From NCBI RefSeq assembly GCF_003967075.1, contig NZ_AP018664.1, positions 1,426,001 to 1,490,000 on the forward strand: a DNA stretch of 64,000 nt. The letters run 5' to 3'. Within the stretch, counting starts at the first letter, position 1, and the number at the start of each line of letters is the position of its first letter. The translations under genes and the position numbers were made by a program. The DNA comes from Sphingobium amiense. GTDB taxonomy: Bacteria > Pseudomonadota > Alphaproteobacteria > Sphingomonadales > Sphingomonadaceae. Positions 57,653-64,000 of this stretch are shown here, piece by piece. The notes beneath the pieces were generated by a model. It saw only the letters and a list, made by a program, of their open reading frames with translations. It did no database searches and had not been told where the DNA came from.

Positions 57653-58825
57653 TCAGCGCTCGATGCACATGGCGACGCCCATGCCGCCGCCGATGCAGAG
57701 CGTCGCAAGCCCCTTCTTCGCGTCGCGCTTGCCCATTTCGTAGAGCAGGGTGGTCAGCACCCGCGCGCCCGAAGCGCCGATCGGATGACCGATGGCGATC
57801 GCGCCGCCATTGACGTTGAGCTTTTCGGGATCGAATCCCAGTTCCTGCCCGACCGACAGCGCCTGCGCGGCAAAGGCCTCGTTCGCTTCGATGAGGTCGA
57901 GGTCGCCGACCGACCAGCCCGCTTTCTCCAGCGCCTTGCGGCTGGCCGGAACCGGCCCGATCCCCATGATCGAAGGATCGACGCCGCAGGTCGCAAAGCC
58001 CGCGATCCGCCCCAGCACGGCCGATCCGCGCTTCGCCGCCTCGTCCGCGGTCATCAGCACCAGCGCCGCCGCGCCGTCATTGATGCCGCTCGCATTCCCG
58101 GCGGTGACGGTGCCGTCCTTCTTGAACGCGGGCTTCAGGCTCTGCATCGCCTCGACCGTCGCGCCGTCACGGATATATTCGTCGGTGTCGACGATGGTGT
58201 CGCCCTTGCGACCCTTGACGGTGACGGGCGCGATCTCATCCCTGAAGCGGCCCGCCGCGCGCGCCGCCGACGCCTTGTTCTGGCTCGCCACGGCAAAAGC
58301 GTCCTGCGCCTCGCGGCTGATCTGATATTTCTCCGCGAGGTTTTCGGCGGTGATGCCCATATGATAATTGTTGAAGGCGTCGGTCAGCCCGTCGTGGATC
58401 ATCGTGTCGACAAGGCTGACCGGACCCATCTTCGCGCCCGCGCGCAGAAACTGGGCGTGCGGCGCCATCGACATGCTTTCCTGCCCGCCCGCGACCATGA
58501 TGCGCGCGTCCCCGGCCCGGATCGCCTGCGCCGCCAGAGCCACGGCACGCAGCCCCGAGCCGCAGAGCTGGTTGAGGCCGATGGCGGTGCGCTCGACCGG
58601 GATGCCCGCATTGACGGCGGCCTGCCTCGCAGGGTTCTGCCCCTGTCCCGCAGCCAGCACCTGACCCAGAATCACCTCGTCGATTTCGTCCGCCGCGACT
58701 CCGGCCTGAGCAAGTGCAGCGAGGATTGCCTGACGCCCCAGCTCATGCGCCGGAACGGACGCGAAAGCGCCCAGAAAACTGCCGACCGGGGTGCGTTTGG
58801 CGGCGGTGATGACGATGTCTGACAT
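57653..58825 (-). CDS. phaA: Acetyl-CoA C-acetyltransferase (beta-ketothiolase)
   Basis: This thiolase condenses two acetyl-CoA into acetoacetyl-CoA or splits it; next to PHA genes it can supply the first step of polyhydroxybutyrate. The 390-residue product has the nucleophile C88 in [11 protein letters not shown]347 in [10 protein letters not shown] and C377 in [11 protein letters not shown]. The ATG at 58825 fits the family start. The gene lies downstream of the PhaC-like hydrolase gene on the same strand. Confidence 0.92.
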
Positions 58826-58875: not shown

Positions 58876-59964
58876 TCAGCCGCCATGACTGGAAAGCCAA
58901 AGGGAGAGGGGGCGCCAGAGCATTTCCCGCGCGCGTCCGCTCACCACCATCCCCACATGGCCGAGCGACAGGCACCATTGTTCGGCGAGAGCCGGACCGG
59001 CGGCGGCGGGCACGATGCGGTCGGATGCGGACACGATGGAGAGGGAAGGGCAGGACAGCGCCTGCGGCTCCACCCGTTCCCCCGCCACCTGCCACAGGCC
59101 GCGCCCGGACACATTGTCGGCATAAAGCCGCTCGAACAGATCGCGTCCCGCCGCGAAGGTCAGCGGCGCGCCCTGATTGGCCCAGTCCTCCACCGCGAGG
59201 AAGGCGCGCTCCGCTTCGGACCCCGGCTCCATGTCGGTAAAGGCCGCATATTTGCGGATCGTGCGCGCCGGGTCCATCGCCCAGAAGCCCGATTGCAGCA
59301 CCTCCATCGGCACATAGCCCAGCCGCTCGCACACCGCCCGCGCGTCCGTCCACAGCCTGATGACGAGCGAGCGATCCTCTTCCGGAAAGGCATCGAACCG
59401 CCACGGCGTCGCGATGGTGGCGACGGCTTTCGCACCGACCGCCCTTGCAGCGCCCAGCGTCAGGCTTCCGCCAAGGCAATAGCCCACGAGAACAGGGGGG
59501 CGGGGCAGGCCTGCGAGCAGCGGCATCAGCCTTTCGGTCACATGATGGTCCAGCCCCAGATCCGCGTCGTCCGGCTCCGGCGTGCCCCAGTCGACCAGAT
59601 AAGCGTCATGCCCTGCTGCGGCCATGTGGCGCAGCATGGATCGCTTTTCCGACAGGTCGAAAATGGCGGGAGGATTGATGAGCGAGGGAATGAAAACAAC
59701 CGGATGGCGACCATTGTCCGCCCCGAAATGCAGCAGGCGCGCGGCCCCGCAAGCGGCGGCGCAGGGCGGTGGAGGAACGGGATCGGGCCTTGCCGCCTCC
59801 TGATATTTGCGCAGCCCCGCCATCGCCTTTTGCCGCAGCGCGGGATCGCCCTCCGTTTCGCGCCATAAAATATTGAGGAAAAGGGGTAAAGGCCGCGGCC
59901 CATGTTGCGGTGCGGCAACGGCTTGTGCTATTGCGGAAGATGCAGGTGAGGGAGAGGAATGCAT
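58876..59964 (-). CDS. PhaC-like alpha/beta hydrolase
   Basis: The 362-residue product has the polyhydroxyalkanoate-synthase type nucleophile motif GYCLGG at residues 161-166, with the Cys in place of the usual lipase Ser, and preceding blocks [14 protein letters not shown] and [15 protein letters not shown]. Short proteins of this type (about 360 residues) are related to PhaC and may be true synthases or related acyltransferases. The only in-frame ATG is 59964, which overlaps the phaR ATG on the other strand. It is cotranscribed with phaA. Confidence 0.85.
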
Positions 59965-60130
59965 GACCAAATCCAAGACCGCCAATCAATCGGAACCGGT
60001 CGTCATCAAGAAGTACGCCAACCGGCGTCTCTATAACACCGAAACCTCCAGCTACATCACCCTCGACCTTCTGTCACAGATGACCCGCGAAGGGCGCGAG
60101 TTCACCGTCGTCGACGCCAAGACCGGGGAG
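59963..60130 (+). pseudogene. phaR: PhaR (PHA synthesis repressor), 5' fragment split by IS21
   Basis: The first 56 codons encode the DNA-binding N-terminal domain of PhaR: IKKYANRRLYNTETSSYITL and REFTVVDAKTGE. The frame breaks at 60131, where the IS21 element begins; translation would add Cys and stop at the TGA at 60134-60136. PhaR represses phasin and other PHA genes and is released by binding the polymer. Joined to the 3' fragment the frame is exact (191 residues), so the gene was intact before insertion. GAGAGG precedes the ATG. Confidence 0.93.
60124..60130. repeat. Left target-site duplication of the IS21 element
   Basis: CGGGGAG directly before the left end matches CGGGGAG directly after the right end at 62624-62630. 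The 7-base duplication marks the insertion point in phaR. Confidence 0.9.
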
Positions 60131-60160
60131 TGTTGATTTCCACTGAGAGTTGACCCGGGA
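60131..60160 (+). repeat. Left terminal inverted repeat of the IS21 element
   Basis: Thirty bases beginning TGTTGATTTCC match the right end base for base on the other strand. A second copy of GAGAAGTGACCC lies just inside, at about 60179-60190, as IS21 ends often carry multiple transposase sites. Confidence 0.9.
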
Positions 60161-60242
60161 GGGGCATAAGTTTCCACTGAGAAGTGACCCATGTTTTGAC
60201 TTCCCTCTGGCTGATTGGTCGGAGGATTCAGGAGTGATCGAC

Positions 60243-61769
60243 ATGGCGTTATTGAGTGTAATCCGGCGCTGGCATTTCCGGCAGCAGGTTCCGATCCGGG
60301 AGATCGAGCGGCGCACTGGTTTGTCGCGCAACACGATCCGCAAGTACCTGCGGGCGGACACGGTAGAGCCGCAGTTCAAGGTTCCCGAGCGGCCGAGCAA
60401 GCTGGACCCGTATGCGGAGAAGCTGTCAGGCTGGCTGCGGATCGAGGCTGGCAAGTCGCGCAAGCAGCGGCGCACGGCGAAGCAGATGCACGCCGATCTC
60501 GTGGTCCTGGGCTATAACGGCTCATACGGGCGCGTTGCGGCCTTCGTGCGGACCTGGAAGGCCGATCGTCAGCGCGAGCAGCAGACCAGTGGTCGCGGCA
60601 CGTTCGTGCCGCTGGTCTTTGCGCCGGGCGAGGCGTTCCAGTTCGACTGGAGCGAGGACTGGGCCTTGCTGGGCGGCAAGCAGACCAAGCTGCAGGTGGC
60701 GCACACCAAGCTGTCACACAGCCGCGCCTTCACCGTCCGAGCTTATCTGCTCCAGACTCACGAGATGCTGTTCGACGCTCTGACCCAGGCCTTCCGGGTG
60801 CTGGGCGGCGTGCCGCAGCGCGGGATTTTCGACAACATGAAGACCGCGGTTGATCGGATCGGCACGGGCAAGGCTCGGCAGGTCAACGCGCGCTTTGCCG
60901 CGATGGCCAGTCATTACCTGTTCGAGCCCGAGTTCTGTAACCCGGCTTCCGGTTGGGAGAAGGGACAGGTCGAGAAGAACGTGCAGGATGCACGGCGCCG
61001 GCTGTGGCAACCCATGCCCAGCTTCCCCGACATCGATGCGCTCAACGTCTGGCTCGAGGAGCAGTGCATCGCGCAATGGGGTCAGATCCAGCATGGCGTC
61101 CTGCCCGGCACCATCGCCGATGTGCATGCCGAAGAGGTCGCCAGTCTGATGCCGCTGGGCCGGCCCTTCGATGGCTTCGTCGAGCACACCAAGCGGGTAT
61201 CGCCGACCTGCCTGGTCTCCTTCGAGCGCAATCGCTACAGCGTGCCAGCCTCTTTCGCCAACCGGCCGGTGAGCCTGCGGGTCTACCCTGACCGGCTCGT
61301 CATCGCCGCCGAGGGCCAGGTCCTGTGCGAGCATGGCCGGATCATCGAGCGGTCCCATGACCAGCCAGGGCGGACCATCTATGACTGGCGGCATTACCTG
61401 GCGGTGATCCAGCGCAAGCCTGGCGCCCTGCGCAACGGCGCGCCCTTTGCCGAGATGCCCGAGGCCTTCCGGCAGTTGCAGGGCTTCCTGCTCAAGCGCC
61501 CCGGCGGTGACCGGGAGATGGTGGAGATCCTCGCGCTGGTCCTGCAACATGATGAGCAGGCGGTGCTCTGTTCCGTCGAACTGGCGCTGGAAGCTGGCGT
61601 GCCGACCAAGACCCATATCCTCAACATCCTCCACCGGCTGCTCGACGGCAAGCCAACCAGCATCGCCGCCATCGATACCCCACAGGCGTTGAGCCTGCGC
61701 CGGGAGCCGAAGGCCAATGTCGCGCGCTATGATACGCTGCGCGGGAAGGATCTGCGTCATGCGTCATGA
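60243..61769 (+). CDS. istA: IS21 transposase IstA
   Basis: IstA is the DDE transposase of the element. The 508-residue product has an N-terminal helix-turn-helix ([18 protein letters not shown]) and an rve-type catalytic core with D135 in FQFDWSED, D197 in IFDNMK and E244 in GQVEKNVQD. The ATG at 60243 is 8 bases behind AGGAG. The stop overlaps istB by 11 bases. The sequence is intact. Confidence 0.95.
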
Positions 61770-62529
61770 TCCCGCCAGCGCCGCCGTCATGGTCATGCTG
61801 CGCTCCCTCAAGATGTACGGCATGGCCCAGGCCGTCGCTGACCTCATCGAGCAGGGGGCACCCGCCTTCGATGCGGCCATCCCCATCCTCTCCCAGTTGC
61901 TCAAGGCCGAGATGGCCGAGCGCGAGGTTCGGTCCATCGCCTACCAGATCAAGGCGGCCCGGTTCCCGGCCTACAAGGACCTGGCCGGCTTCGACTTCGC
62001 TTCCAGCGAGGTCAACGAAGCCATGGTCCGCCAGTTGCATCGCGGCGAGTTTATCGATGGCGCCCATAACGTCGTCCTGATCGGTGGCCCCGGCACCGGC
62101 AAGACGCACGTCGCCACCGCACTTGGCGTCCAGGCGGTCGAGCATCACCGCAAGAAGGTCCGCTTCTTCGCCACCGTCGACCTGGTCAACGCGCTGGAAC
62201 AGGAAAAGGCCATGAACAAGGCAGGCCAACTGTCCGAACGGCTCCTGCGCCTCGACCTCGTCATCCTCGACGAGCTCGGATACTTGCCGTTCAGCCCGTC
62301 AGGCGGCGCGCTGCTGTTCCACCTGCTGAGCAAGCTTTACGAGCGCACCAGCGTCGTCATCACCACCAACCTCAGCTTCAGCGAATGGGCTGGCGTGTTC
62401 GGTGATGCCAAGATGACAACGGCTCTGCTGGACCGGCTCACCCACCACTGTCACATCCTCGAGACCGGCAATGACAGCTTTCGGTTCAGGGCCAGCGCCG
62501 CGGACCCCAAATCACGAAAGGAAAAATAA
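61759..62529 (+). CDS. istB: IS21 helper ATPase IstB
   Basis: IstB is the AAA+ (DnaC-like) ATPase that selects the target and helps IstA. The 256-residue product has the Walker A motif GGPGTGKT at residues 109-116 and Walker B VILDEL with D171 and E172. Coupled translation with istA is suggested by the overlap. Its last codons lie about 95 bases from the right end. Confidence 0.95.
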
Positions 62530-62593
62530 CCCGCTTGACCCACCACCCGCATAGCGGGACATACCTTCCAACCGGGTCACTTCTCGATGAAAA

Positions 62594-62623
62594 TCCCGGG
62601 TCAACTCTCAGTGGAAATCAACA
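62594..62623 (-). repeat. Right terminal inverted repeat of the IS21 element
   Basis: This is the perfect mirror of the left 30-base end. The adjacent GAGAAGTGACCC copy on the minus strand lies just inside. Confidence 0.9.
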
Positions 62624-62630
62624 CGGGGAG
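62624..62630. repeat. Right target-site duplication of the IS21 element
   Basis: CGGGGAG repeats the left copy at 60124-60130. In the ancestral phaR sequence only one copy existed, between the Gly-Glu and Asp codons. Confidence 0.9.
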
Positions 62631-63038
62631 GACATCACCCATAATGTCCTGACCCAGATCATCATGGAAGAGGAACAGCGCGGCAAGAACATGCTGCCCG
62701 TCAACTTCCTGCGCCAGTTGATCGCCATGTATGGCGATTCCATGCAGTCGATGGTGCCGCAATATCTCGAAGCGTCGATGGACGCTTTCCGCAAGAACCA
62801 GCAGCAGTTTCAGGAAGCGATGAAGGGCGCGTTCGGCGGCGGCCCGCTTGCGGAAATCGCCAAGCGCAACATGCAGATGTTCGAAGCGGCGGCGAGCGCG
62901 TTCGGCACCGGCGTTCCGGGCATGCCCGGCATGACCCCGCCCGCGCCCTCCGCATCGGAAGGCAGCAAGGACGACGAGATCAACGACCTCAAGGCACAGC
63001 TCGCCGCCCTCAATGCAAAGATCGACAGGCTGAGCTGA
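62631..63038 (+). pseudogene. phaR: PhaR, 3' fragment beyond the IS21 insertion
   Basis: The continuation of PhaR reads DITHNVLTQIIMEEEQRG, then a helical oligomerisation region and an Ala/Gly/Pro linker followed by a last coiled-coil helix. The frame is open upstream into the IS right end, from a TTG at 62535, so an abnormal fusion peptide could be made. Without the N-terminal domain it cannot bind the phaR operator. Joined with the 5' part it is a normal 191-residue PhaR. Confidence 0.92.
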
Positions 63039-63045
63039 TCCCGGC

Positions 63046-63387
63046 ATGGCGAAGGCGGATCGTCTGGAGCGGCTCGACATGCGCCGGGCTGAACTGGAGG
63101 CCGACTATCGCGATGCCCTGATCGCCGCATTGCGCGCCACGGCGGCGGGCCGCTGGGGTCTGTTCGGCCATCATGCCGACCGTCATGCGCGCGCGGCGGC
63201 CAAACCCGCGCTCGACCAACTGGAAGAACTGGCGGACGATATAGACCGTCTGCGCGAGCAACTGGGCCTGGAACCCTTCACGCTTCATCGGCAGTTCCTG
63301 GCGGCGCGCGGCCCGGTGGCGGCGGACGCGGTGGGGGAACCGAAACAGGCGAAGGCATGGCTGGCGCAGATGGGCGCGGCGGACTGA
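63046..63387 (+). CDS. Hypothetical protein downstream of phaR
   Basis: The 113-residue product is helical and charged, beginning LERLDMRRAELEADYRDALIAALRAT, with a mid-region WGLFGHH and a coiled-coil-like stretch ALDQLEELADDIDRLREQLG. No family is recognised. It follows the phaR fragment after 7 bases and may have been in the phaR transcript. The sequence looks cytoplasmic. Confidence 0.75.
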   Translation: MAKADRLERLDMRRAELEADYRDALIAALRATAAGRWGLFGHHADRHARAAAKPALDQLEELADDIDRLREQLGLEPFTLHRQFLAARGPVAADAVGEPKQAKAWLAQMGAAD

Positions 63388-63475
63388 CCGCCCTTCGCGC
63401 CTGTCGCTCTGGGGGTCGACACAGGTGGCGCGTCTGTCCTATGGCGCGCCATCTTTTCCGTCCTGCCAGCCTTAA

Positions 63476-64000
<525 letters not shown>

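Follow-up and report, generated by a model that had tools for sequence, protein, structure and literature searches.

As read from its genome, this Sphingobium strain has had its only phaR gene invaded by an IS21-family insertion element, which would end translation inside the DNA-binding domain of the encoded regulator, and we strongly infer that the strain is a natural phaR null. In the bacteria studied so far, PhaR represses the promoters of phasin and depolymerase genes as long as no polymer granules titrate it away. We consider it highly probable that a natural loss of PhaR, bringing derepression of phasin and depolymerase and an uncoupling of polymer storage from its control, accounts for the observations reported below as a whole. 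The window analysed here is a stretch of 64,000 nucleotides, positions 1426001-1490000 of contig C1, in a 4.77-Mb genome assembled in 7 contigs.

The interrupted gene and the inserted element

The left piece of phaR (59963..60130, forward strand) has 56 codons and matches positions 1-43 of the 61 of PF07879 with 75 bits and positions 1-44 of TIGR01848. The right piece (62624..63038, forward strand) carries the remainder of the DNA-binding domain (PF07879 positions 39-61) and the polymer-binding region, with the complete PF05233 lying entirely within it. The PhaR architecture of PF07879 followed by PF05233 is present but split over two pieces; scored singly against TIGR01848 (cut-off 109.45), they reach only 62.4 and 85.6 bits. 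The insert breaks PF07879 after 43 of its 61 profile positions; the left frame enters the element, reads ...DAKTGEC-stop and ends after 57 codons. A second intact phaR elsewhere in the genome had been set beforehand as one observation that would speak against the natural phaR mutant claimed in the earlier note, and relatives with the same insertion as another. The search of the whole genome found no second gene, with PF07879 matching the two phaR pieces only, and the insertion is absent from the relatives compared below; so far as sequence can tell, the claim is supported.

The element itself (60131..62623, forward strand; 2,493 bp) is bounded by inverted repeats that match over 30 bases and is directly flanked on its 5' and 3' sides by the two copies of the target duplication CGGGGAG (60124..60130 and 62624..62630). 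Its termini read TGTTG...CAACA, with inverted repeats that end in CA as the IS21 family requires, and part of the end repeats recurs near 60170-60190 and 62575, a possible trace of the multiple internal repeats (L1/L2, R1/R2) of the family. The 7 bp at the phaR copy agree with the short target duplication of IS21 elements, and a 7-bp flank match would arise by chance with a probability of about 6e-5. The transposase gene istA (60243..61769, forward strand; 508 aa) exceeds the NCBIfam cut-off for IS21 family IstA (NF033546, 324.6 bits, cut-off 160), and its Pfam rve score of 30.9 bits falls just below the cut-off of 32.6. Downstream of it, as in IS21 elements, lies istB (61759..62529, forward strand), encoding the AAA+ helper ATPase (NF038214, 279.6 bits, cut-off 200; PF01695, 252 bits), for which an in-frame ATG upstream at 61717 is a second candidate start. 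Both frames are open. The observation of the earlier note is confirmed: the element has intact istA and istB and sits in phaR where it was said to sit, with the Glu codon of DAKTGE-DIT on its left and the Asp codon on its right. Excision of the element with one CGGGGAG reproduces the predicted frame of 191 residues, with no stop.

Among known elements, annotated copies of the ISRsp3 family are 79% identical to this one over its full length. The best copy in a plasmid collection, from Novosphingobium sp. PP1Y, is 86.7% identical, and none above that value was found there at megablast sensitivity. The element has in common with the IS21 family the order of istA then istB, the TG...CA ends and a short target duplication. 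The duplication is 7 bp here as against the 5 bp reported for IS5376 and many others (PMC11208146), and 6-8 bp in related copies elsewhere.

Copies of the element and age of the insertion

At least nine full-length copies of the element, 100% identical, are present in this genome, together with at least eight full-length copies of a sister element at 77% identity, besides fragments; these counts are lower bounds, as scoring covered 40 of 129 initial candidates. The 7-bp duplication is kept by two of the nine identical copies, the one in phaR and L008, and is absent from the other seven (L001-L005, L007, L009) and from all eight sister copies (L010-L017). The copies devoid of a duplication have perfect or near-perfect ends. 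Pairing the ends of different copies gave nothing beyond 4 bases (TCGC twice) among the nine identical copies and nothing over 4 or more bases among the eight sister copies. Exchange between copies was accordingly rejected as the cause of the missing duplications, since left ends do not equal the right ends of other copies; adjacent deletions or numerous rearrangements are possible causes. In other genomes, the ends could be located in nine of 11 related copies examined, and duplications of 6-8 bp were present in three.

One identical copy, L007 (1501-3993 of that locus; C1 about 1.021-1.024 Mb), interrupts a TonB-receptor-like gene. The large piece beside it corresponds to a TonB receptor barrel and the short piece has no Pfam match; our guess, read from the two frames, is that a small deletion beside this copy may have removed a few dozen residues between the two sides. 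Tracing this copy in 12 relatives yielded short or weak flank matches only.

The best full-length copies in the 93 other genomes of the genus, among three candidates scored per genome, are 87% identical. One of these genomes (G089), by its phaR coordinates probably that of Sphingobium wenxiniae CGMCC 1.7748, holds two pieces (C15:65408-65765 and C23:1-356) that match the right end with 100% identity. The second of them begins at the first base of its contig, and the element is probably shared with that species.

The presence of at least nine identical copies suggests a recent burst of transposition, although exchange between copies could equally keep them alike. The earlier note had deduced a recent insertion from perfect ends and intact genes. 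The nine identical copies and the kept duplication favour this idea; intact ends alone are a poorer basis for it, and none of this gives a date. Our own case for recency is an argument: only one other copy is as little disturbed as the one in phaR, whose flanks can still be joined into a complete frame.

phaR in related genomes

We compared the locus in relatives, as the earlier note had proposed, and the result agrees with its expectation of an uninterrupted gene. In the genus, phaR occurs in one open frame in 90 of 93 other genomes (91 of 94 counting this one), and the three genomes with no match are incomplete (60, 79 and 81% complete). The phaR matches listed for these 90 genomes have no internal stop; four were reported as two alignment pieces, each pair within one frame. 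Likewise, aligned phaR is stop-free in 80 of 80 named loci, and the nearest relatives among named records are mostly Sphingobium. The same insertion was found in none of the 90 genomes of the genus in which phaR was matched besides our own.

Exactly DAKTGEDIT, in unbroken codons, stands at the insertion point in 74 of 110 fetched loci, a set that counts some genomes twice; the other 36 differ from this wording, and their intactness rests on the genus and named-locus searches. The spelling CGGGGAG occurs at this point in one of the 74. We also sampled 397 genomes of the family, each at least 95% complete; PhaR is matched in 389, with eight having no match; this genome has two matches and every other matching genome has one. 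On these counts, the loss described here is unusual only in that nearly all other members of the family retain PhaR (388/396 other genomes).

Gene neighbourhood and rival explanations

The gene divergent from phaR (58876..59964, reverse strand; 362 codons) is PhaC-like, with 103.7 bits against TIGR01836, below the cut-off of 365.3, and an Abhydrolase_6 match in its longer reading. Beyond it lies a thiolase (acetyl-CoA acetyltransferase; 57653..58825, reverse strand; TIGR01930 461.5 bits, cut-off 240.55). The start codons of phaR and the PhaC-like gene overlap at 59962-59965, and the PhaC-like match likewise begins at residue 1 there in 28 of 80 related loci. Given these putative starts, each promoter would lie inside the coding sequence of the other gene. 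On the other side of phaR, a 113-codon ORF with no family match (63046..63387, forward strand) is followed by the start of proS (63488..64000, forward strand), which is named from sequence and conservation and runs past the end of the window. The PhaC-like gene and the thiolase were both found in 30 of 30 loci (L063-L092). In the same 30, proS follows phaR throughout (42 of 80 loci overall), with a phaR-proS gap of 84-466 bases in 28, and the 113-codon ORF is present in 11 of 80 related loci.

This arrangement bears on whether the insertion acts mainly by disturbing the 113-codon ORF and proS, with the loss of PhaR being minor. The ORF begins only 7 bases past the phaR stop and proS is consistently downstream, as such a polar effect would require. 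However, 19 of the 30 loci lack the ORF, and proS must be expressed because the strain lives. A possible hairpin between the ORF and proS (z -2.4; equalled in folding by 4 of 200 shuffled sequences) hints at separate transcription of proS, although a terminator scan of 62500-63600 found none. We regard a dominant polar effect as very unlikely. An assembly artefact, in which the element was misplaced into phaR through its identical copies, seems to us less likely still, to the point of being hardly credible: nine identical copies of 2.5 kb do make a hard repeat for assembly, but a mis-join would not leave 7 duplicated bases whose removal with the element gives back the exact frame, the two flanks belong to one gene and keep the gene order seen in relatives, and the contig reaches 4.22 Mb in an assembly of so few contigs.

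Residual PhaR activity deserves somewhat more attention, even if we think it improbable. The right piece, translated from a start in or after the element, could still bind granules, or both pieces together could repress weakly, making the strain a partial mutant. Having all of PF05233, the right piece might do something; its frame stays open back to a TTG within the element, and a weak candidate hybrid promoter, TCAACA-16-CATAAT (62618..62645, forward strand; 9 of 12 consensus positions), spans the right end of the element, where one such pair was found against 0.1 expected. Against this, the split of the DNA-binding domain leaves a left piece of just 57 codons, and any start or ribosome-binding site for the right piece is putative. 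We retain the loss of PhaR as the preferred reading.

Predicted PhaR operators

A 2025 study gives the PhaR motif of S. meliloti as WNWDDNYGCRNYGCRNHHWNW and reports that two phasin promoters carry two copies each and a depolymerase one, and that PhaR binds at ppdK (PMC12542648). The motif reported for B. diazoefficiens is TGCRNYGCASMA (PMC6201568). The longer motif has 19 full sites in our genome versus 26 for its reversed counterpart; a motif match by itself therefore has no selectivity, and the predicted operators are credible through position and conservation only.

Two of the 19 sites lie 47 bp apart upstream of the only PF09361 phasin gene of the genome, which lies at C1 about 2.6254-2.6262 Mb and follows the class I phaC. 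We compared 30 phasin loci, that of our strain among them (phasin frames chosen by a rough rule): 22 show one or more full sites and seven show two, a number that rises to 19 when up to one mismatch is allowed; the remaining 78,921 bases of these loci hold one full site. A third site lies 54-74 bases upstream of the assumed start of a PHA depolymerase gene at C1 about 2.7414-2.7425 Mb (PF10503; NF050058 328.7 bits, cut-off 150). Of 30 loci fetched for this gene we compared the 14 nearest, our own among them; 13 have a site with no more than one mismatch 69-81 bases before the aligned start, and the remaining 52,362 bases hold no such site; any match to this depolymerase gene was found in only 22 of 41 genomes. 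For the other 16 sites no tie to PHA genes is shown, and one precedes a bestrophin-like gene. This comparison establishes the predicted PhaR-type operators, two at the phasin and one at the depolymerase, as conserved in the genus and still present in this strain. No match at zero mismatches occurs at the class I phaC or within the window. The statement in the earlier note that PhaR represses phasin and PHA genes would here fit the phasin and one depolymerase. The genome has four genes with a PhaC_N domain, one of them on contig C3 and one being the class I synthase beside the phasin.

A narrower pattern was derived from the phasin and depolymerase sites, and those three match it by construction. 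It has six exact matches in the genome and, at one mismatch, 15 matches versus 3 in the reversed control. One exact match (C1:787939, L241) precedes ppdK, with 39 and 63 bases from the middle of the site to the candidate starts; another (C1:531967, L240) precedes a circularly permuted ATP-grasp gene by 56 bases, and the sixth precedes an ORF with no family. A one-mismatch site (C1:1703678, L249) precedes a glycogen phosphorylase gene. The ppdK, ATP-grasp and glycogen phosphorylase genes are possible further targets of PhaR. Before phaR itself, the motif core is matched at 59900-59920, with two mismatches in the arms, and the core recurs about 61-66 bases before the gene in 32 of 32 loci (L063-L094), with at most two mismatches in 30. 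We rejected an autoregulatory operator there, as the core overlaps the PhaC-like frame and the window holds 55 such matches versus 53.9 expected.

Discussion

The sequence of events that we propose would begin with a copy of the element transposing into the only phaR and duplicating 7 bp. Translation would then end after 57 codons, within the DNA-binding domain, and PhaR would be lost. The phasin and depolymerase promoters, left with no repressor, would be on regardless of polymer, and storage would be uncoupled from its control. As matching operators persist while PhaR is lost, phasin and depolymerase are expected to be derepressed in this strain. In B. diazoefficiens, phaR loss is reported to raise two phasin transcripts about 50- and 129-fold, to lower PHB and to raise exopolysaccharide (PMC6201568). 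The same paper cites lower PHB in phaR mutants of R. eutropha and Methylobacterium, and on its account published mutants mostly store less polymer as phasin rises (PMC6201568). By analogy with these mutants, we would expect high phasin, an active depolymerase and reduced storage; with moderate confidence, lowered storage with more exopolysaccharide is the most likely outcome.

It is tempting to go further and to see here a naturally selected PhaR-less lineage, in which an operator set comprising the phasin, PHA depolymerase, ppdK and possibly the ATP-grasp and glycogen phosphorylase genes runs unregulated. If true, carbon would be diverted heritably away from polymer and into other sinks; we think it doubtful. 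The inactivation of a regulator by an insertion element is an ordinary, commonplace kind of event. Sphingobium is known for pollutant breakdown. The strain could serve as a ready-made natural phaR null, the comparison yields a set of candidate PhaR operators in Sphingobium that can be tested, and those who use the strain for polymer or physiology work should be aware that its storage control is probably broken. Among the papers listed by our literature searches, judged on titles and the beginnings of abstracts, we found no natural phaR insertion and no sphingomonad PhaR.

The closest known counterparts are the constructed phaR (aniA) mutants of Bradyrhizobium diazoefficiens (PMC6201568) and Sinorhizobium meliloti (PMC12542648), in which PhaR is lost and operators of the same type are intact. 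Both there and, as predicted, here, PhaR loss stands alongside intact operators at phasin, depolymerase and ppdK, and the arrangement of S. meliloti, with two operators at phasin and one at depolymerase, has its predicted equivalent in our strain. The difference lies in the origin of the loss, which in this Sphingobium strain is natural and caused by an insertion element.
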